Below are positions 27,996-38,210 of a stretch of 64,000 nt of DNA, in pieces. Source of the stretch: Paludisphaera rhizosphaerae (GTDB lineage: Bacteria > Planctomycetota > Planctomycetia > Isosphaerales > Isosphaeraceae); assembly GCF_011065895.1 (NCBI RefSeq), contig NZ_JAALCR010000001.1:248001-312000 (forward strand), read 5' to 3'. Position 1 is the stretch's first letter; each line of letters begins with the position of its first letter. Below the pieces are notes generated by a model that was not told the origin of the DNA, ran no database searches, and was given only the letters and a program-made list of their open reading frames with translations. Both the position numbers and the translations under genes were made by a program.

Positions 27996-29615
27996 TTAGA
28001 ACTCCGGCGGGCCGTTCAGCTTCTCGCACTTCTCCGGACGTCCCGGGATGAAGTCGAGGACTTGCCCCTGAGAGCGCAGGCGGGCCTGAAACCGCTCGAC
28101 GTCGAGCTTCTGGGTTGGAGTTGCGTTCCTGGCCGCGATCGCCGCCGCGACGCCTGCGGCGTGGCCGACGATCATCCAGACGCTCTCCAGCCGGAGCGTG
28201 CAGAAGGCGACGTGCGAGTAGCTCGCCGCGCAGGGGACCAGCAGATTCGTACACTCTTCGGGCTTCGGGGTGATCGCGCGATAGGGGATCTGATAGGCGT
28301 AGCCCATCCGCCAAATGCGGCCCTCGTTGACGAACTCGGCCGGGGAGAGCGCCAGACGCTGGACGTGATGGGAGTCGATGAAGTGGCTGCTCATGCCGAT
28401 GGCGTCTGCTTTTCGACGGTCCTCCTGGACGTCCCGCTGGGTGACGACGTGGCTCCCTCTGATGCGTCGGGCCTCGCGAACGTAGAGCTGGTAGGGGAGA
28501 TTCCCGTTATCGACGAACTCATCTTTGTGGAGGCCGATCGACTGCATCTCAGCGCGCATCGCGGCCGGTACAGCCTCGTCGTCCGCGAGGAACTGGAGGA
28601 GGCCGAGGGTGTAGTCGAGATGGTCCTGATAGATCTCCGCCCGACGTTTGGCACCGGCCTCGGCCCAGTCGATCTGCCCGCCGAGGTGAGACAGCGAGAT
28701 GATCGCCGCTTGCTTGTTGTTCAGCTCGATCTTGCCGTTGCGTCGGGGGTAGAGGTCGAGCACCTGCGACAGTTCGGCAGGCTTGCCGATGCGGGATTGC
28801 TCGCGAAGCCAGTCGGCCAGAAGCGCGTATCGGGCGGGATCGTATCGCGGCGATCGAGGGATCGGGACCCGGTACCTGGGGTCGCGAGCGACGGTGAGCC
28901 GGAAGTTGTAGCTCATCGGAGCGCGGTGGGCGTCGCCTTCCTTCAGATCCTTCGCCCAGCCCGAGATTCCGGGGCGCAGCCGCCCGTCGTCGTCGACGGT
29001 CCGGGCGCGTCTGGGGGCCTGGTCGAAGCGGATTCCGGCTGCTTCCTCGTCGTACTGCGATCGGGATTCACGACCGACGGTGTACGAGACCCCCGCGTCG
29101 GCCGCGAGATCGCCCTCGTAGGAGGCGTCGATAAAGCTTCCGGCGTTGACCTGCGAGCCGTCGCTCAGCCTCGCGGCGGCGAGGACTGTCCCGTCTCGCT
29201 TCAACGAGTCGAGCGAGACGCCGGTCCGAAGGAGGACGCCCGCTTCGCGGAGCATTTCGAGGTAAGTCGATTCGGCGACGCTCGACTCGAAGTAGTACTC
29301 CGGCTTGCCCGTACCGTAGCGGGCCCCGAGCCGTCGATAAAACTCATCGGCGATGCCGCCGATGGTCCAGGGGAGCATGTGCTCGGTCTCGGCCGTGTTG
29401 ATCCCGCTCGTGCTGAGCCCGCCGACGTGCCCAGTGGGCTCGACCAGGATCGTCCGGGCTCCCTCGCGCGCGGCCGCGATCGCCGCGGCGATGCCGCACG
29501 GAGTACCGCCGTAGACGAGGACGTCGCAATCAGCGTCGCGATAGGTCGACGCCCGCGCCGAACTCGACGCGGCGAGCGCTCCCAGCGACCCGTGCAGGAA
29601 TGCTCGACGGTTCAT
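27996..29615 (-). CDS. Exported FAD-dependent oxidoreductase (FAD_oxidored type)
   Basis: 539 residues. The leader NRRAFLHGSLGALAASSSARAS looks like a Tat signal, which suits export of a folded flavoprotein. FAD binding: CDVLVYGGTPCGIAAAIAAAREG, then ILVEPTGHVGGLSTSGI, then FIDASYEGDLAADAGV. A C-terminal block ends PCAASYSHVAFCTLRLESVWMIVGHAAGVAAAIAA, typical of this family in planctomycetes. The substrate is unknown, possibly a sugar acid or polyol. The gene converges with the sialidase-like gene (37-bp gap) and lies downstream of the PspA operon on the same strand with an 81-bp gap. Confidence 0.82.
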   Translation of the reverse strand: MNRRAFLHGSLGALAASSSARASTYRDADCDVLVYGGTPCGIAAAIAAAREGARTILVEPTGHVGGLSTSGINTAETEHMLPWTIGGIADEFYRRLGARYGTGKPEYYFESSVAESTYLEMLREAGVLLRTGVSLDSLKRDGTVLAAARLSDGSQVNAGSFIDASYEGDLAADAGVSYTVGRESRSQYDEEAAGIRFDQAPRRARTVDDDGRLRPGISGWAKDLKEGDAHRAPMSYNFRLTVARDPRYRVPIPRSPRYDPARYALLADWLREQSRIGKPAELSQVLDLYPRRNGKIELNNKQAAIISLSHLGGQIDWAEAGAKRRAEIYQDHLDYTLGLLQFLADDEAVPAAMRAEMQSIGLHKDEFVDNGNLPYQLYVREARRIRGSHVVTQRDVQEDRRKADAIGMSSHFIDSHHVQRLALSPAEFVNEGRIWRMGYAYQIPYRAITPKPEECTNLLVPCAASYSHVAFCTLRLESVWMIVGHAAGVAAAIAARNATPTQKLDVERFQARLRSQGQVLDFIPGRPEKCEKLNGPPEF

Positions 29616-29696: not shown

Positions 29697-30002
29697 TCAG
29701 CCCCGGAACTTGGTCTTGGGGGCGGCTTCGAGGATGCCGTGAATGGTGTGCATGATGTTGTAGGCGGTCAACTCGCAGAGGAGCTTGGTGACTTCCTCGT
29801 GCAGGTCCGGGTCGAGTTGAGGCTCGATCTTCTTCATCAGCTCGACGACGCGATCTTCCTGTTCGGACAGCTCATGCTTCTCGATCTTGCCATCGGCCAT
29901 CGCGGCGATGAAGCCGGTGAGCTTCTGGGCGTACTCGTGGACCAGCGGCTCGTCGCCCTTGTCGTCGAGCCAGGGGGTCCGGTGCTTCTTCGCGTGCGAC
30001 AT
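29697..30002 (-). CDS. Small helical protein, last gene of the PspA/AAA+ operon
   Basis: 101 residues from ATG at 30002 (GGGAGA upstream); the frame runs further upstream inside the AAA+ gene but has no support. The product is acidic and predicted helical. The block FIAAMADGKIEKHELSEQE resembles the ADG-x-E turn of TerB-like or EF-hand-like helical proteins. There is no membrane segment. It starts 32 bases after the AAA+ stop, so it is probably an adaptor or regulator of that ATPase. That role is inference; I do not recognise the family. Confidence 0.7.
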   Translation of the reverse strand: MSHAKKHRTPWLDDKGDEPLVHEYAQKLTGFIAAMADGKIEKHELSEQEDRVVELMKKIEPQLDPDLHEEVTKLLCELTAYNIMHTIHGILEAAPKTKFRG

Positions 30003-30034
30003 CAGGGGTCTCCCGTCGATCGTTGCGGTTCGGA

Positions 30035-31840
30035 TCACTCTTCGATGACGCGCTTGATCGCCGCCATCCGTTCCTGCAGTTTGGCGCGGGCGTCGGGGTG
30101 CTCGAGCCGCTCCTTCCAGTCGTTGGGAAGGAACGACTTCGACGTGCACTCCAAGACCGCGGCCAGCTCTTGCTTTTCCTTCTCCAGCCCCTGGGCCGAG
30201 GGGACGAAGTCTTCCAGGGCGCTCTTCACGTCCTCGGCGGTCGCCTGCTCGCGGTTCTGGGTGAGCGCCAGCCGCTTCGCCGAAAGGACGATGCTCTCGA
30301 TGTCGGCGCCGCTGAACCCGCGATCCGCGAGTCCGTCGGGAAGCAGCGAGGGGTCGAGGCGGAACTTGTTCTTCCGCGCCATGGCCAGGAACATCTCCCT
30401 GACCTCGGCGTCGTTCGGAGGGTTGAACAGCGGGAGGTGGACCTCTGCACGCCCCTGGCGTTTCAGGTCGATGGGGAGAAGGTCGGGGCGGCTCGTCAGC
30501 AGCATCCAGATCAGCTTGCCGCGATACCGAGTGTCCCCCATCTGGCTGGCGATCATCGAGAAGACCCGGCTCGACGTGCCCGAATCCCCGGAGCCTTCCC
30601 GAGTCCCCAGCGCCGCGTCGGCCTCATCGATGACGACCACGACCGGGCCCATCGCTCGGAGCACGTTCAGAAGCTGTTCCAGGTTCCCCTCGGTCTCGCC
30701 GACGTACTTCGACCGGAAGTTGCGGAGCTTCACGCAGGGGACGCCCACCGAGCCGGCGAAGCACTCGGCCAGATACGTCTTGCCGGTGCCGACGGGGCCG
30801 CAGATCAGATACCCCATCGGCGCGGCGTCGAGCCGCCCCTTGGCCAGAAGCTTGGCGTCCTCGATGAGACGCTTCTTGACCCCTTCGTTGCCGACGAAGT
30901 CGTCCATTGTGGTCGGCGGCTCGACGAACTCCACAAGTCCGCGGGCCTGGCGTTCAATGAGGCCCTTCTTCAGCTTCTTCAGGCTGTTCGCCTCGAGCTT
31001 GACCTGCGTCTGCTGGGCGATGTCGAGCAGGCGGCCCAGGCTCACGAGGTTCAGCCCGCTGGTCAGGTCGGCGAGCTGCTTCGAGCTGAAATCGGTCAGG
31101 TTGCCGACCACGGAATCGCGGTCGTCAATCCATTCGATGTACTTCCGCCGCTGCTCGGAATCGGGCATCGGGACGGCGACGGCGGTCACGTGGGCGTTGC
31201 CGACGAGCCGCTCGTTGACCTCGCTGAGCTGGTCCGAGAAGAGGCAGAACACCGTGCTGCTCTGCTTGATGAGCGGGTCCTGGGCCCATGCGAGAAAGCG
31301 TACCAACCGAGAACCGATGGGCCCCGAGAGTTGGGACAGATCGCTGGATGGGACCAGGAACTGGGCGAAGTCGAAGAAGACGGCGATGCTCAGCCGCTTG
31401 GGCGATCGCGCGTCCTCCATCAGGTTGAACTGGATCAGGCGATCGAGCGTGGCCAGAACCGCGTCCGCGTCACGCGGCCAGGCCTTGAACTCGCCGATCC
31501 GCCCGGAGAGGGTCGTCAACATCTTGAGTCGACGCGCGCCGTCGCTGCCGGTGAACACGTCGAGGCCCCGGCTAACGTCGTAGGTCAGCACGACGTCCCA
31601 GCGGCCGAAAAGCTGGTCGGCCAGCAACTCCGGGACGCTGCCGTATCGGGTCGGCTCGTCGTTCTGGCGGACGATGTCGTGGACGTTGCCGTGGAGGACG
31701 AAGAGGCAGCTGGCGCGGGCCGAGAACAGCTCGGCGATCTCCGCGGCCCACGCGGGGAGACCGTCGGAGGCGGCGGCGTCGCCCCCGACAGTCGGCACCG
31801 CCGGCGGCGCGGCCGGCTCAGCCTTGGGATCGATGCTCAC
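30035..31840 (-). CDS. Ycf46-like AAA+ ATPase
   Basis: 601 residues from GTG. Residues 30-300 form an AAA-like domain without a Walker A motif, as in Ycf46-type proteins. The junction RQARGLVEFVEPPTTMDDFVG (about 298-317) matches that family's linker. The active C-terminal domain has Walker A GPVGTGKT (348-355), the pore-loop-like FRSKYVGETEGN, Walker B VVVVIDEAD (400-408), sensor-1 TSRPD, a candidate Arg finger KRQGRAEV, and a sensor-2/lid region up to about 550. It is probably a hexameric remodelling ATPase. It sits 54 bases after pspA and 32 bases before the small protein gene, so its client may be the PspA oligomer. Confidence 0.85.
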   Translation of the reverse strand: MSIDPKAEPAAPPAVPTVGGDAAASDGLPAWAAEIAELFSARASCLFVLHGNVHDIVRQNDEPTRYGSVPELLADQLFGRWDVVLTYDVSRGLDVFTGSDGARRLKMLTTLSGRIGEFKAWPRDADAVLATLDRLIQFNLMEDARSPKRLSIAVFFDFAQFLVPSSDLSQLSGPIGSRLVRFLAWAQDPLIKQSSTVFCLFSDQLSEVNERLVGNAHVTAVAVPMPDSEQRRKYIEWIDDRDSVVGNLTDFSSKQLADLTSGLNLVSLGRLLDIAQQTQVKLEANSLKKLKKGLIERQARGLVEFVEPPTTMDDFVGNEGVKKRLIEDAKLLAKGRLDAAPMGYLICGPVGTGKTYLAECFAGSVGVPCVKLRNFRSKYVGETEGNLEQLLNVLRAMGPVVVVIDEADAALGTREGSGDSGTSSRVFSMIASQMGDTRYRGKLIWMLLTSRPDLLPIDLKRQGRAEVHLPLFNPPNDAEVREMFLAMARKNKFRLDPSLLPDGLADRGFSGADIESIVLSAKRLALTQNREQATAEDVKSALEDFVPSAQGLEKEKQELAAVLECTSKSFLPNDWKERLEHPDARAKLQERMAAIKRVIEE

Positions 31841-31894
31841 GGGATCAAACCCCGATGGAAGATGAGGTGGCTCGCCAGGTCCCGGCCGCCCAGA

Positions 31895-32659
31895 TCAGGG
31901 GAGTTCGGGAAGGGGTTCGAGCTGCTTGGTCTTCGCGGGGCCGAGCTGCTTCTCAGCCGGCGCGGAGCCCACGGTGGCGGGAGTCGCCAGGCCGTTCTCC
32001 TTCTCGAATTCCTTGAGCGCGTCCTCGGCCAGGTTCTTCTCGATGGCCATCTCGCGCTTGATGTCCTCGACGCCTTCGCCCGAGAGGTCGGCCGCCACGC
32101 GGACGCGGCCTCGGTTGCGGTCGATCTGGTCCTGGATGACCTGCTCAGCCTGGCCGAAATCGGTCGTCACGTTGAAATTGAACTGGGTGGCGATCTGCGA
32201 CAGCTCAGCCTCAGCGCGGCTCATCTTGAGGTCGGCGTCGTACTTGGTGATCTTGTGCTTGACCGCCTCAAGCTTCTCGACGGCGTGCTTGATCTTCAGC
32301 AAGTTGTTCTGATACGCCTGCTCGTGGATGGCAAGCTGCTTCTGGTTCTCGGCCAGATCCTCCTTGGCGCGGCGGAGGTCGAGCGCGAACTTGGCGGCGC
32401 CCTCACGGTCGCCCGCGTTAAGGAACGCCTTGACCTTGGCTTCCAGCGTGGCCACGACCTTCGCCTGGTTGTCGACCTGACGCTGCACGCGTTCCACCAG
32501 CGCCCGATACTGGGCCAGGCCTTCGCGACCTTCCTTGAGCTGCTCGACCGATCGGTCGTATTCAAGCTGCATCTCGGCGATCGGGTCGTAGCCTCGGATC
32601 GCGTTGGCGAGCTTGTTGAACTGCGCGGCGATGGCGTTCCAGAGTTTGCCGAGGATCAT
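31895..32659 (-). CDS. pspA: PspA/IM30-family membrane-remodelling protein
   Basis: 254 residues. The start MILGKLWNAIAAQFNKLANAI is the amphipathic helix used for membrane binding, followed by YDPIAEMQLEYDRSVEQLKEG and a long helical hairpin to about residue 200. PspA/Vipp1 proteins share the ESCRT-III fold and polymerise on damaged or stored-curvature membranes. The C-terminal tail (about 205-254) is Pro/Ala-rich and longer than in E. coli PspA. There is no PspF, PspB or PspC in the window, so the regulatory arrangement differs from the enterobacterial system. It lies 102 bases after the TPM gene. Confidence 0.9.
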   Translation of the reverse strand: MILGKLWNAIAAQFNKLANAIRGYDPIAEMQLEYDRSVEQLKEGREGLAQYRALVERVQRQVDNQAKVVATLEAKVKAFLNAGDREGAAKFALDLRRAKEDLAENQKQLAIHEQAYQNNLLKIKHAVEKLEAVKHKITKYDADLKMSRAEAELSQIATQFNFNVTTDFGQAEQVIQDQIDRNRGRVRVAADLSGEGVEDIKREMAIEKNLAEDALKEFEKENGLATPATVGSAPAEKQLGPAKTKQLEPLPELP

Positions 32660-32761
32660 GGCGTCACCCGTGCTGAGACAGAAAGCTGGATCATTTCGCG
32701 ACGTAACATCATCTTAGACCGGCCGACTCGCATTATCTACGAGCCGGGAGAGGCGCCGGGC

Positions 32762-35611
32762 TTACCACGACGATTCACTGGCCTCGCTCGACCACGAGCT
32801 GGACGAAGCGTTCGCTGCCGGCCCCGCCGACTGAGGCGGAGGCGGAGCCGAGCGCTCGGTCCTTGGCGTCAAACCGCCGATCATCGCACCACCGGCAGTT
32901 CCCATGCCGAAGTTATGAAGCACGACCGCGCCCCGACGCTGCTGGGCCAGCACCTGCATCTGCCGGAGGTAGGCCTGCTGGACGGCCGCGTTGTGGGCCC
33001 GTCGGAGTTGCTGGATCGCCGACCCCGCCGTGCGGATCGATTGCTCGTATTCCTGGGACCGGTAGAGCGACTCGGCCTGGTTCAACTGCGACTCCGCGGG
33101 GCGAGTGTCCAGGCCGATTCCCATGGAGATGAACGTGCGGCCTTCGCGGATGACGCGGGCGGCCTCGGACATCTCAGCCTCAGCCTGCCGGGCCAGGCGT
33201 ATGTCCTCGCGAGCGAGCTTCTCCGAGTAGGCGAGATCCTGTCGAGCGCCGCGGACCTGATCGAGAAGCCGAGGCCATTCGTTGCCGACCCGAGTGCTGT
33301 CGTCGCCGACGAGGTTGAGAACCTCGGCCGCGTGCCGGTAATGCTGGTTCGCGGCGACACGGTCCTCGCTGTGGCCGGCTAAAAACGCCTCGACCCGCTG
33401 CGCCTGGCTGCGGGCCTGGTCGTATTCCTTGGTCAGAAGCTGGTAGATGTCGTAGTCGGATTGAGCCTGGGATTGAGCGATGCCGAACTCCTCGCGGGCC
33501 TGGATCAGGGCTCGGCGGGCCGAAGGCCAGTCTGGGGGATTGGCCGAGGCCAGGCGGCGGGCGTCCTCGCGGGCGGCGGCCGCCGATTCGAGGCTCTTGC
33601 GAGCCTGGGCCCCAACGACGTGGTCGTACTGGGAGAAGAATCGACGGACCTCGCGATCGCGGGCCGTCAGTTCCTCGGCGATCCGATCGGCCTCTTCACG
33701 AACCGCCTTGAGCCCCGCAAGCTGATCGCCCACGGCGTTCATGAGTTGAAAGACGGCCTGCTGCTCCAGATTCAGCCGACCGAGAAGCCGCGCGGCCAGA
33801 AGGTACTTCTGCTCCTTCGGGTCCGCGTCCTTCTCGACCTCGTCGGCCTTGCGATCGAAGGTCTCCAGCAGAGCGCGGGCCTGGCCCAGGTTGCCGGCGA
33901 CGTTTCGCCATGACGAGGGAGCAAAGTCCCGCTTCAACTCTTGCTCGAACATCTGATACTGGCTCATCGCCTCGCTGAGCCGGCGGGTTTCGCGGCGGGT
34001 TTCGGGCAGCCCCTTTTCGATTCCCGCCCGAGCCTTCAGGACGGAGTCGAGGACCCCCTTCCCCTGGTCGAGCCAGGTCTGGGCCGCGGCGAGTTGTTCG
34101 GCGGCCTTGACCGGATCGCCGAGCTCGAGGGCCGTCTGAAGTGCGGCCAGCGCTTCGTCGCCGCGGGCGGCCGATCCGTCGGGGTTGCCGCCGTCCTCGA
34201 CAAGCTCCAGACCCTTGCGGCGATGTTCGGCGACTTCCTCTCGAAGCTTCTGAAGTCCCTCTTGCACCTTCTTGCCGTCGCCGAGCCGGGCGACGACATC
34301 CGACGCGCGACGGACCAACGCGTCGGCGTCGGTCTTGGTCTTGTCGATGATCGTCTTGGCGCCGAGAGGATCGGGGGGGAGGATCTCATCGGCGCGGGCG
34401 GCCTCGGCGGCGATCCGGTCCACCTCGGGCTGGTAGGGGATCACGGGGAGACCGGCGGTATTCACGGACTCGACCTTGCCGTCGGCCTCTTTACGGGTTT
34501 CCGCAAGCACCTTCGCGGCCTCGCGGGCTTCCTCGTGCGCCGCGTTGAGTCGGTCCATCGTCCGGGAGCATTCCTGAGCCCCCTTCTCGACCTCGTCGAA
34601 CACCTTGGAATTGGAGAGCAGCGCGTCGGCCTCGGCCATCGCTTTCGCCCCCTGCGCGCCCCCCTTCTCCGCCTTGTCGACGACGTCCATCACCTCCAGC
34701 CAGCGATCCCAGAGCTTGCGAAGGTCGTCTTGCCCCTTCTCATAAAGAGAAAGGGTCTCGCCGGTGATGGGGACGGTGAAGTCGGGATCCTCGACCGTGA
34801 GCGACTTGAGCCGGGACTTCAGCGCGTCGAGCCGGTCCATCATGGCGACGGCCTTGCCCTTGTAATCCTTGAGCTTGGCGTTGAACTCGCCTCGCGCCCG
34901 CCGACGGCCGAGCCAAATCAGAGCGCCGATCATCAGCGCGATCGCGGCCAACGAGCCGCCGATCGACCACGCCAGCTCGGTCGAGGAAGGGCCGTGGAAT
35001 CGGACAGGAGCGGCCGACGGAGGCGTCGACGTGGTCGCGACGGTGTTCGCAGAAGCCGTCGAGGCCTTCTCCCTGGCCGCGATGAAGCCATCGACCCCAT
35101 TGAGGAGGGCGATGAGGGCCTGGGGATACTCGTGCTCCTTGGCCAGCGGGATGAATTGGGGGGCGACGATCTCGCGATCGATCGTCTCTCCTCTGAGGCC
35201 GAGCTTCGTCGCCAGGGCGTCGCCGGGCATCACGACGACCTGGTGGTTGTCGATGGCCGCCACGACGATCACCGAGCGATCCGGGTCGAGTCTGAGTTTG
35301 CGGGCCTTCGCCTGGTCGCGCCAGGCGTCCAGAAGCCCCTGGGCGTAGGTTCGAGTCGCGGCGTCCGCCGCCGGGCCCGATGACTTGACCACCACGACGT
35401 AGTAGGTCTGGGGCGATTTCGCCTCTAAGTCGCGGATCGTCCTGGCCACCGACTCGTACACACTCGGCACTCCGGCGACGTAGAGCCGCTCGCCGGTGAA
35501 CTCCGGGATCGGCGTGGCGTCTTCGGCGACGGCGTAACAGGCCGAGAGCGAGATCAAGGCCGAAGCGAGAACGATCAGGTTGATCTGTTGAGCGGCGGAC
35601 GTCGAGCGCAT
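32762..35611 (-). CDS. TPM-domain membrane protein with very long coiled coil
   Basis: 949 residues. The leader carries a possible lipobox (ISLSAC, C25), or Sec cleavage after AVA. A TPM domain spans about 45-180 (YYVVVVKSSGPAADAATRTYAQGLLDAWR, DRSVIVVAAIDNHQVVVMPG). One membrane helix follows (213-234, then GRRRARGEF), so the TPM domain faces the periplasm and the remaining ~650 residues face the cytoplasm. These are predicted mainly coiled coil, and the tail is Ser/Trp-rich (SSSSWSSEASESSW), echoing the Gly/Ser tail of TPM proteins. As first gene of the operon it could be the sensor or membrane anchor for PspA. Confidence 0.82.
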   Translation of the reverse strand: MRSTSAAQQINLIVLASALISLSACYAVAEDATPIPEFTGERLYVAGVPSVYESVARTIRDLEAKSPQTYYVVVVKSSGPAADAATRTYAQGLLDAWRDQAKARKLRLDPDRSVIVVAAIDNHQVVVMPGDALATKLGLRGETIDREIVAPQFIPLAKEHEYPQALIALLNGVDGFIAAREKASTASANTVATTSTPPSAAPVRFHGPSSTELAWSIGGSLAAIALMIGALIWLGRRRARGEFNAKLKDYKGKAVAMMDRLDALKSRLKSLTVEDPDFTVPITGETLSLYEKGQDDLRKLWDRWLEVMDVVDKAEKGGAQGAKAMAEADALLSNSKVFDEVEKGAQECSRTMDRLNAAHEEAREAAKVLAETRKEADGKVESVNTAGLPVIPYQPEVDRIAAEAARADEILPPDPLGAKTIIDKTKTDADALVRRASDVVARLGDGKKVQEGLQKLREEVAEHRRKGLELVEDGGNPDGSAARGDEALAALQTALELGDPVKAAEQLAAAQTWLDQGKGVLDSVLKARAGIEKGLPETRRETRRLSEAMSQYQMFEQELKRDFAPSSWRNVAGNLGQARALLETFDRKADEVEKDADPKEQKYLLAARLLGRLNLEQQAVFQLMNAVGDQLAGLKAVREEADRIAEELTARDREVRRFFSQYDHVVGAQARKSLESAAAAREDARRLASANPPDWPSARRALIQAREEFGIAQSQAQSDYDIYQLLTKEYDQARSQAQRVEAFLAGHSEDRVAANQHYRHAAEVLNLVGDDSTRVGNEWPRLLDQVRGARQDLAYSEKLAREDIRLARQAEAEMSEAARVIREGRTFISMGIGLDTRPAESQLNQAESLYRSQEYEQSIRTAGSAIQQLRRAHNAAVQQAYLRQMQVLAQQRRGAVVLHNFGMGTAGGAMIGGLTPRTERSAPPPPQSAGPAANASSSSWSSEASESSW

Positions 35612-35764: not shown

Positions 35765-36718
35765 TCAGACCCGACTACGGACCCGTCGGCGAGCGAAACC
35801 AAGCGCGGCCGCCAGAGCCGTCGCGGACATCACCATCGACGACGGCTCGGGGACCGCACCGCTGGTTGGGACGAATCCCGTATAGAGCGGCCCGTGGATC
35901 TCGCCGTTGAAATTCAGCGACTTGGCGAAGACGTTCGAGTCGATCGAGACGCTCCCCTGGGTCACGTCCGCCTTCATGGCGAGGATCGTCCCGTAGAAGT
36001 TGTTGTTAAGCGTCAGTGAGGTCGCGTTCTCGAAGTTCCAGAGGACCTTCGAGCGATCGACGTTCGACCAGGCGCCGATGAAGTTGTAATTGCTCGAAAC
36101 CGACGTGCCGCCCGTGACGTTGATGATGATACTGCCGACGCTCGCGTAGTCACCGGCGATCTGGAAGCCGTTCTGATACTGCGAGTTGCTCAGGACCGAG
36201 CCGTCGATCGAGAAAACCGCGACGCCGTTCACGGCCGTCGCCGCGTTGACGGTGAAAACCCCACCCGCCGAGAGCGCGGCCTGGTTCGTGGCGAGGGCGG
36301 CAAAGGCGGCCGAATTATTGACCAGCTCCGTGGTCATGGCGGTCGTCTGAGCAGCGAGGCCGGCCGTAGGCACAACCTGACCGCCGCCGCCGTTCAGGAG
36401 GAAAGTCCCAGCAGGAGGAGCGCTCGTGATGGCGACGCTCTTCCCGTTGTTCACCTGGATGTTGGTCCCTGACACTGTGCCCGCAACGGTCAGGCCGTAA
36501 GTTCCCGTGAACGCGTTCATCGCGAACACCGAGTTGGCGCTTCCTGTGAGATTGCCGCCCACCCAGGTGTTGTAGTTGACGTGCGAATTCGCCGTCAGGT
36601 CGCCAGAGGTGAACACACTGTACTGTTGCAAGACCGAGTCGGCCGAGGCCAGAGCCGGGGAAAACATCACAGCCATCACGCCGGCGGCTCGTCCGAGGAT
36701 ACCGAAAGCCGATTTCAT
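35765..36718 (-). CDS. PEP-CTERM protein, choice-of-anchor A family
   Basis: 317 residues from ATG at 36718 (AAGGG six bases upstream). The signal peptide is MKSAFGILGRAAGVMAVMFSPALASA. The body has the choice-of-anchor A pattern: SVFTSGDLTANSHVNYNTWVGGNL early, then repeated Asn/Ser/Thr-rich beta strands, and LWNFENATSLTLNNNFYGTILA near residues 235-260. It ends VPEPSSMVMSATALAAALGFARRRVRSRV-like: a PEP motif, hydrophobic helix and basic tail for exosortase processing. It is thought to be a surface or matrix protein. A paralogue is divergently transcribed 487 bp away. No exosortase gene is in the window. Confidence 0.9.
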   Translation of the reverse strand: MKSAFGILGRAAGVMAVMFSPALASADSVLQQYSVFTSGDLTANSHVNYNTWVGGNLTGSANSVFAMNAFTGTYGLTVAGTVSGTNIQVNNGKSVAITSAPPAGTFLLNGGGGQVVPTAGLAAQTTAMTTELVNNSAAFAALATNQAALSAGGVFTVNAATAVNGVAVFSIDGSVLSNSQYQNGFQIAGDYASVGSIIINVTGGTSVSSNYNFIGAWSNVDRSKVLWNFENATSLTLNNNFYGTILAMKADVTQGSVSIDSNVFAKSLNFNGEIHGPLYTGFVPTSGAVPEPSSMVMSATALAAALGFARRRVRSRV

Positions 36719-37205
36719 TTTAGCCCTTGGGTTCAACATCGAGACCGTGGTCGAGCGCGTACAGTCTCCCTCGATCCGAAACAGGCCTCTGGGCCGATTT
36801 CGGACGTCTTCGGTCGACCGATCTCAAAAGGCGGCTGTCGCCCTAGAGCACGTGACGACTACGAGTCGTCGTGCACGTCGCTGCAATGTAGTTACGCCGA
36901 AAGAACTCGGTCGGCCTTCTCGTTGCCGAGAATCATCATGCCGTTGCCTCGCCTCACCTCCGCTTCTTGTCGAAATCAGGCGACGAATGCGACCGGCGTC
37001 GCGGCGAGGCGGGCCCGTTCTCGCCGACCGGATAAGCCGTCGGATGGAGAGAATCACTTCGGCGGTTGGCGAAACCTGCGACGGCGAGCGGGATCGGGCC
37101 TATGTGTTTATTAAGGATGCGAGGCGAGAGGGACGGCGTTGGTCCCACCTGAGTTACGAGGCAGTCGCGCCGCGCACGATCGTCGACGAATGATCGAGAG
37201 ACATC
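36719..37205. other. Divergent regulatory region between two PEP-CTERM genes
   Basis: 487 bases with no convincing gene; open frames here lack sites and recognisable products. A perfect 7-bp hairpin with a 3-nt loop, GACGACT-ACG-AGTCGTC, lies at 36854-36870, roughly one third of the way across. The stretch at 37100-37117 (tatgtgtttattaag) is unusually AT-rich and may contain promoter elements for the plus-strand gene. Confidence 0.4.
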
Positions 37206-38210
37206 ATGATGAAATCCGCGATGCGTGCGTTGGGATTGTGCGCCCTCGGTCTTGCCGTCCCGCAATCGGCGCAGGCCGATCTGCTGACGAACTGGAACGT
37301 GGTGACGACGGGCGACCTCTACGCCGGCAACGGCGTTCAGGGGGCCGTCCGCGTTGGCGGGAGCTTATATGTCCAGAACAACTTCACAGCCGCCTCGTCC
37401 AAGGGATCGCCGACTTCGGCTTACTCGTCGCTGATCGTGGGAAAGAACGTCAGCACGAGTTACAACAATCGCGAGACAGTCAAGGTCGCGCAGGGGAACG
37501 CCACCATCGGAGGTACGATCAACGGGGCGTCGAACAACAACGCCGGAATCGTCTCGGCCAACAATGGGACGGTCAAGATGGACTCGTCCATCTCCGGCAT
37601 CGGTGCGACCGACCTGGATGAACTGAAGTCCGATTCGGCGGCGTTTTCGGCGATGACCGGCTCAGAGTCGGTGTACCTTCCGACGAAACAGGTCGACACG
37701 GCGAAGCTGACCGTCACCTCGGTCGACTCGTTGGGCAACGCCGTCTTCAACATCGACGGCGCGACTCTCTTCCAGAATTCGCTGGTTCGCGGCGTCTCGC
37801 TGGATCTCAATGGTTTCAAGTTCGGGACCGGGCAGTCGGTCGTTATCAACGTGACGGGCGACGCCCTGAAGTTCCAGAGCGGGTACAACTTCAGCGGCGA
37901 CTTTCAAAGTGCGGCCTCGAACATCATCTGGAATTTCAGTACCGCGACTTCGATCAACCTCAACAGCAACAACCTTTACGGCGCCCTGCTCGCGCCGCTC
38001 GCCCTGCTCCAGAACTCGAACGGCGTCACCGGCTCAATCTTCGTCTCCAGCTTGAGCAGCGTGAGCAACGTCAGCCTGCCGTACTATCAGGGATACGACC
38101 CTTCCGCGATCCGTCCCGGAGCCACCCCTGAGCCTTCAAGCATCGTGTTGGCTGGAATTGCGCTGGCCTCGACCCTGATCGTTCACGCGAGGCGACGGCG
38201 CAACGATTGA
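37206..38210 (+). CDS. PEP-CTERM protein, choice-of-anchor A family
   Basis: 334 residues. The signal peptide is MMKSAMRALGLCALGLAVPQSAQA. It shares the layout of the divergent protein: NWNVVTTGDLYAGNGVQGAVRVGGSL early, many Asn/Ser/Thr-rich strands, and IIWNFSTATSINLNSNNLYGALLAP near residues 238-262, the conserved end of the choice-of-anchor A domain. The C-terminus TPEPSSIVLAGIALASTL followed by HARRRRND is a PEP-CTERM sorting signal. Function unknown; probably exported and anchored or released by an exosortase encoded elsewhere. Confidence 0.9.
   Translation: MMKSAMRALGLCALGLAVPQSAQADLLTNWNVVTTGDLYAGNGVQGAVRVGGSLYVQNNFTAASSKGSPTSAYSSLIVGKNVSTSYNNRETVKVAQGNATIGGTINGASNNNAGIVSANNGTVKMDSSISGIGATDLDELKSDSAAFSAMTGSESVYLPTKQVDTAKLTVTSVDSLGNAVFNIDGATLFQNSLVRGVSLDLNGFKFGTGQSVVINVTGDALKFQSGYNFSGDFQSAASNIIWNFSTATSINLNSNNLYGALLAPLALLQNSNGVTGSIFVSSLSSVSNVSLPYYQGYDPSAIRPGATPEPSSIVLAGIALASTLIVHARRRRND

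Follow-up and report, generated by a model that had tools for sequence, protein, structure and literature searches.

A four-gene operon encoding a TPM-domain membrane protein, the ESCRT-III superfamily protein PspA, a double-AAA+ ATPase, and a small helical protein was analyzed in Paludisphaera rhizosphaerae (assembly GCF_011065895.1, 8.05 Mb). It lies in a stretch of 64,000 nucleotides (contig NZ_JAALCR010000001.1, positions 248,001 to 312,000), referred to as the window, whose coordinates are used for all operon positions. The unit is conserved far beyond chance, with PspA and the ATPase as its core, and a short motif at the PspA C-terminus, KQLGP, appears from the sequences compared here largely to track the ATPase. 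We consider the chances about evenly balanced that this tail recruits the ATPase, which would extract PspA subunits from the polymer at the TPM anchor and thereby make the operon a polymer-plus-disassemblase module.

The occurrence of PspA beside a double-AAA+ ATPase with a Vps4-like role (PMC11237479) and of PspA with a TPM protein (YdjH) is already in print. New are the four-gene order, the small protein following the AAA+ gene, the co-occurrence of PspA and AAA+, and the PspA tail motif. The first-pass annotation of the window, which knew of no characterized system with these four parts, thus described an association less new than claimed, as far as the available text of PMC11237479 goes.

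Conservation of Gene Order and Co-Occurrence

When genome contigs were scanned with the AAA+ protein, a search that reaches close relatives only, 54 loci were returned, mainly from Planctomycetota and Myxococcota and many of them cut off by contig ends. The small protein is encoded next downstream of the AAA+ gene in 50 of the 51 loci having at least 330 bases after it, the exception being L022, and PspA is present in 36 of the 42 loci with more than 1.5 kb before it. Of the loci missing PspA, three (L040, L049, and L050) show the gene order of Myxococcota and break off short of the expected PspA place, L035 carries TM305 (the transmembrane/coiled-coil protein of a longer operon) in this place, and L021 and L022 show neither PspA nor TM305. 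A relationship of TM305 to PspA or to the TPM protein was considered and found no support in profile comparison. L022 (5767-7785) stems from a Blastopirellula metagenome-assembled genome and is a full AAA+ orthologue with no PspA or small protein detected nearby.

A PBP-OmpA gene is part of the operon in 32 of the 54 loci, mostly together with genes for a permease (27), an ABC ATPase (31), and TM305 (32). The TPM protein occurs in 6 of the 54 and is outside the widely conserved core; in no locus (0/54) were PBP-OmpA and TPM found together, which suggests that the operon takes either the TPM protein or the transporter block as its membrane module. In some loci (L086, L101, L102, and L103), PspA and AAA+ are the only module genes detected, which identifies the dyad as the core.

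The four-gene order is kept in five of the five other genomes of the genus examined (G255-G259), so that the check on relatives proposed in the first-pass annotation leaves its reading standing. Among 13 further genomes of the family, PspA was found in 6 and the small protein in 5, and in 11 genomes from other families of the class neither protein was found (0 and 0). In a survey of 255 Planctomycetota genomes (thresholds of E 1e-60 for AAA+ and 1e-5 for PspA), AAA+ was present in 42, PspA in 31, and both in 28 (Fisher p 1e-23, kinship ignored). Both genes are held by one fetched stretch in 19 of these 28 genomes and are on separate contigs in 9. PspA alone was observed for G102, G131, and G187 and AAA+ alone for 14 genomes, five of which (G003, G056, G108, G171, and G214) have a weaker PspA close by. 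The small protein was strongly matched in 7 of the 255 genomes, precisely those whose AAA+ orthologue exceeds 860 bits, and weakly (at most 27 bits) in 5 further genomes; it goes with one AAA+ subfamily.

The C-Terminal Motif of PspA

The second gene had been named PspA/IM30 in the first-pass annotation, which is borne out by a PspA_IM30 domain above the curated Pfam cut-off (36.5 versus 33.9 bits), the sole such match in the genome. A search of Protein Data Bank (PDB) sequences with the PspA profile gave no match at E 0.01. In 34 aligned PspAs, L239 and G240 are invariant and K237 is kept in at least 90%, which defines a motif K-x-L-G-P beyond a variable linker. For counting, a strict motif, K-x-[LMIV]-G-[PERHD] within the last 90 residues, and a looser one, [KR]-x-[LMI]-G with the next residue not L, M, I, or F, were used. 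The looser one replaced an earlier pattern that also caught the core-end residues KKMG and RELG.

The strict motif is found in 35 of 38 close PspAs, in 5 of the 6 rows L056-L061 (only L059 and L061 are new, since three rows duplicate previous records and another is the PspA of the window), in 19 of 24 divergent planctomycete PspAs, and in 12 of 14 PspAs from L086-L105, a set that shares 9 genomes with the 24 divergent ones. Within the last 45 residues the looser motif is present in 38/38, 5/6, 22/24, and 12/14 of the same four sets, adding KQLGS, KHLGQ, RQLGP, RTMGP, RTIGP, and KTMG at the very end. The divergent PspAs (41-102 bits against the subfamily, compared with 307-450 for its members) mostly still end in KDLGP, KSMGP, KTIGP, or KTIGE, and of the 21 divergent genomes (out of 24) with AAA+, 20 have the motif. 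PspAs without the looser motif are those of L059 (KQLGL), L080 (genome G102, no AAA+ match), L082, L099, and L100. The last three have a common tail ending DRQ(K/R)I(A/S)E, which might be a second motif for recruitment. The module PspA loci L161-L168 are outside these counts.

Paralogous Myxococcota PspAs, none of which has an AAA+ gene in its own 2-3.7 kb locus, served as control; L144 (no PspA frame recovered) and L148 (a gene of 164 residues) are outside the Myxococcota counts. The strict motif occurs in 0 of 13 canonical and 0 of 9 second Myxococcota PspAs at every length tried, and so does the looser motif within the last 45 residues. Of the 13 canonical proteins (L131-L143), 12 have an end of their own, (T/S)AEDLKEL(E/Q)DLDL. 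The tail motif is also absent from E. coli PspA. On a tree of the PspA core, tails excluded, the motif label takes 6 changes compared to a shuffled mean of 27.2; here L200 (DRLGPA) and L059 (KQLGL) were scored as lacking the motif and L199 as having it via KQLEPLPE, several rows duplicate one genome, and the program warned of long branches.

Relatives Whose ATPase Left the Operon

Lineages without the ATPase in the operon represent natural controls. In G288, an Isosphaeraceae genome in a single contig (93% complete; L198 3125-8300), the genes of the TPM protein, the small protein, and PspA are adjacent and AAA+ is unmatched at E 1e-40. Its PspA ends in GLAGPQTTAALPG, the motif being lost, and its small protein is without the FRG end. 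In case of G287 (L197 and L203), PspA adjoins the small protein and AAA+ is located on another contig with no module gene detected near it; again, PspA has lost the tail motif and the small protein its FRG end. Thus, AAA+ has left the operon in two genomes of the family, and both have lost the motif. The remaining 10 PspA-containing genomes of the family, among them that of the window, have AAA+ after PspA and retain the tail; in G281, it is recognizable only as KQLEPLPEV. Due to weak branch support at this point of the tree, the losses in G287 and G288 may represent one event.

G282 (L200 and L202) holds both operon types, TPM-PspA-AAA-small protein and PspA-PBPOmpA-permease-ABC-TM305, the latter without AAA+ in the stretch read. 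The PspA of this second operon retains DRLGPA, and one AAA+ gene is located elsewhere in G282.

Properties of the Partner Proteins

A clear Pfam AAA match (83.9 bits) is restricted to the second half of the ATPase. That the first AAA domain is inactive, as read from the window before, agrees with the missing Walker A and with the predicted model (pLDDT 84), which aligns across both AAA domains of p97/Cdc48 (Foldseek E 3.2e-19, 593 columns, TM about 0.4; VIA Z 21.7, 475 residues, root-mean-square deviation (rmsd) 10.7). The high rmsd indicates that the two AAA domains are set at a different angle. Profile comparison of the first with the second domain gave no significant match, the AAA fold of the first being taken from the structure model. 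Among 48 aligned ATPases, only L017 has a Walker-A-like pattern in the first domain, away from the P-loop place and probably by chance. The second domain preserves both Walker motifs, the pore loop KYVGE, and the arginine segment across the 48 rows, with few, conservative changes. Considering the active half only, Vps4 (3eih) is matched with Z 20.8, rmsd 3.2, 262 aligned residues, and 25% identity, tying with p97 D2 and others. No MIT family is among the Pfam matches of the ATPase, and the stretch ahead of the degenerate AAA domain comprises only about 25 residues, modelled with low confidence.

The small protein has no Pfam match, TerB (PF05099) included, and no PDB fold match. Its A36-D37-G38 is invariant in 50 aligned rows, so that the ADG turn noted in the first-pass annotation stands; its likeness to TerB finds no clear support. 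Compared with an alignment of four TerB segments, 16 residues around ADG were aligned at a probability of 9%, and an assignment to TerB was set aside as unproven. The T/S-x-F-R/Q-G-like end of most Planctomycetota rows is absent from Myxococcota, and since these AAA+-bearing Myxococcota lack it, a link between the FRG end and the ATPase is weakened. The idea that the small protein is a strict partner of the C-terminal extension of the ATPase was dropped in view of G287/G288 and of L022, where the full extension occurs without the small protein.

In case of the TPM protein, Pfam lists no TPM domain for the window sequence at E values up to 1. Nevertheless, the identity first assigned by inspection holds by orthology, as TPM_phosphatase scores above the Pfam cut-off in close orthologues (26.3 and 24.9 versus 22.1 bits). 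Four orthologous frames were recovered (L120, L121, L122, and L124). Signal peptide, transmembrane helix, and coiled coil were assigned by eye. All six aligned rows share the transmembrane helix, the extended helical region, and a C-terminal tail with W as its last residue, and several further TPM proteins of this family end in GGSW or similar. A role as anchor, as proposed before, agrees with two-hybrid and localization data for YdjH in the available text of PMC8581546.

Operon Layout

The four minus-strand genes and the gaps of 102, 54, and 32 bp between them, as claimed in the first-pass annotation, were recovered (Table 1). The promoter scan found none, and the terminator scan found 5 terminators with 3.9 expected. 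Two look-alike secreted proteins with PEP-CTERM-like ends, recognized by eye, adjoin the operon at 35765-36739 (minus strand) and 37206-38210 (plus strand), and a comparable sequence is situated close to the TPM gene in L120, L121, and L122. On the same strand as the operon, a gene resembling those of FAD-oxidoreductases, likewise recognized by eye, begins about 80 bases past the small protein gene (27996-29615, minus strand). In L054, no conserved gene is marked at this place.

Table 1. Genes and predicted features of the operon in window coordinates.
Feature	Position	Strand	Description
TPM protein	32762..35611	-	949 aa; signal peptide, extracytoplasmic TPM-like domain, one transmembrane helix, ~650-residue helical/coiled-coil region, C-terminal tail ending W
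TPM-like domain, residues ~35-185	35057..35509	-	Pfam matches of orthologues mapped by alignment; limits approximate
Predicted transmembrane helix, residues ~210-234	34910..34984	-	putative; hydrophobic stretch followed by RRRARG
PspA (ESCRT-III superfamily)	31895..32659	-	254 aa; PF04012, 36.5 bits vs cut-off 33.9
PspA C-terminal motif KQLGP, residues 237-241	31937..31951	-	34 aligned PspAs
Double-AAA+ ATPase	30035..31840	-	601 aa, GTG start; PF00004, 83.9 bits in second half; model on p97 D1-D2
Degenerate first AAA domain, residues ~26-300	30941..31765	-	AAA-like fold in predicted model
Catalytic AAA domain, residues ~301-546	30203..30940	-	Walker A GPVGTGKT, pore-loop KYVGE, Walker B IDEAD, KRQGR
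C-terminal ATPase extension	30038..30202	-	PSAQGLEKEKQELAAVLECT ... LQER; conserved; compared between loci with and without small protein
Small helical protein	29697..30002	-	101 aa; no name in libraries searched; 50-row alignment; model pLDDT 83
TKFRG C-terminal tail of small protein	29700..29714	-	T/S-x-F-R/Q-G-like end in most Planctomycetota rows

Proposed Mechanism and Alternatives

PspA would polymerize at inner-membrane sites to which it is tethered by the TPM/coiled-coil membrane protein, in the manner of B. subtilis YdjH. The ATPase, presumably a hexamer, would be recruited via the short K-x-L-G-P motif that ends the flexible PspA tail, and the aromatic pore loop of its active second AAA domain might grip PspA and pull subunits from the polymer, so that the coat would be remodelled and reused. 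The small helical protein would most likely bridge or tune the engagement of PspA with the ATPase, which fits the adaptor role suggested in the first-pass annotation. For the dedicated PspA-acting ATPase envisaged in the first-pass annotation, linkage, genome-wide co-occurrence, and a tail motif that largely seems to track the ATPase speak in favor; anchoring, recruitment, threading, and disassembly are the steps that we infer. That the operon represents a genuine bacterial ESCRT-III/disassemblase pair, with a Cdc48-like double-AAA+ ATPase, a MIM-like C-terminal motif, interchangeable TPM and transporter modules, and a small adaptor, is a tentative view to which we give a little less than even weight.

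Several observations weigh against recruitment by the tail. The ATPase is without the MIT domain of Vps4. L082, L099, and L100 form one AAA+-bearing subclade with another tail. Of the three planctomycete PspA genomes without AAA+ match, G131 and G187 (82% and 81% complete) keep the motif and G102 lacks it. If the last 70 residues are considered, the looser motif appears in 7 of 13 canonical (KQLGAG/KQLGSG) and 1 of 9 second (KILG) Myxococcota PspAs, and the genomes of these control paralogues carry AAA+; the KQLGAG/KQLGSG paralogues could also be clients, or their look-alike could be a shared feature of old origin. Furthermore, the history of the motif is mainly one deep gain with few losses and thus comprises few independent events. 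The small protein has remained beside PspA in G287 and G288, which means that it is not a pure cofactor of the ATPase.

In the available text of PMC11237479, chaperone-like roles are proposed for TPM, band-7, and AAA+ partners of PspA. Accordingly, the ATPase could be a chaperone for other membrane complexes, with PspA and the TPM protein providing only a membrane platform (the assembly-platform reading of the same paper), and the PBP-OmpA gene in 32 of 54 loci, mostly accompanied by transporter genes, makes a client other than PspA conceivable. The permease of the transporter block, however, found no match in the window genome (a single query without positive control) and the minimal PspA-AAA+ loci are devoid of the block, so that no common client besides PspA is evident; as this reading also leaves the tail motif unexplained, it is regarded as rather unlikely. 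The motif might instead bind the small protein or the membrane anchor, its loss along with the ATPase reflecting decay of the system as a whole. Both G287 and G288 have lost the PspA motif and the FRG end while the pair is still adjacent, and general decay would look alike, but L086, L101, L102, and L103 keep the motif with AAA+ and show no small protein, TPM protein, or transporter block. Such a partner for the motif is considered quite improbable.

A function in sensing envelope stress, in which the ATPase keeps PspA inactive via ATP or reports the state of the membrane and disassembly is not its main job, would suit the TPM domain, which is predicted to face outward, and has a precedent in the repression of the AAA protein PspF by PspA in E. 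coli. The Pfam matches of the ATPase include no DNA-binding family, however, and the aromatic pore loop of threading AAA+ proteins is conserved, so that we hold this function to be very improbable. If, as proposed, a five-residue tail motif recruits a dedicated ATPase, the question of how bacterial PspA polymers are disassembled is reduced to a simple test of binding and disassembly. It would also bear on whether recruitment of AAA+ proteins by polymer tails is older than, or convergent with, ESCRT-III/Vps4.

Comparison with Known Systems

Among the titles listed by the literature searches, none is evidently on a characterized system of these four parts. The available main text of PMC9239133 mentions neither planctomycetes nor TPM, and in that of PMC11746142 chaperones or PspF are suggested in the place of Vps4. 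The closest description, in the available parts of PMC11237479, is of PspA with an ATPase that has two AAA copies, the N-terminal one inactive, and for which Vps4-like remodelling is proposed; how PspAs without AAA ATPase regulate assembly is stated to be unknown. The window PspA, linked to a double-AAA+ ATPase with a dead first domain, matches this module. The same source presents as optional a longer operon of ABC ATPase, permease, PBPB-OmpA, and a transmembrane/Snf7-like protein, genes that are not at the window locus, though in relatives. It also places TPM beside PspA and assigns a TPM domain to YdjH. Its main text, as far as available, contains no 101-aa protein, PspA tail motif, or combination of TPM and ATPase in one operon.

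With the pspA-ydjGHI operon of B. subtilis, the window operon shares a TPM-type membrane protein encoded with PspA. YdjH interacts with PspA in two-hybrid assays and is needed for PspA membrane foci (PMC8581546, available text). The B. subtilis operon has the SPFH protein YdjI and YdjG and, as described in the parts of the source available, is without AAA+, whereas the window operon has AAA+ and the small protein; no SPFH family is among the Pfam matches of the four operon proteins, to which the scan was limited.

ESCRT-III/Vps4 and archaeal CdvB-CdvC resemble the window pair in combining a polymer of the ESCRT-III superfamily with a dedicated AAA+ protein. In eukaryotes, a C-terminal motif of ESCRT-III recruits Vps4; the window ATPase differs in having no MIT domain and a double-AAA, Cdc48-like layout, and the tail motif is a different one. 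In contrast to p97/Cdc48, the first AAA domain is without Walker A and the about 25 residues preceding it leave no room for a Cdc48 N domain, but with its two stacked AAA domains p97/Cdc48 is the best structural match over both.

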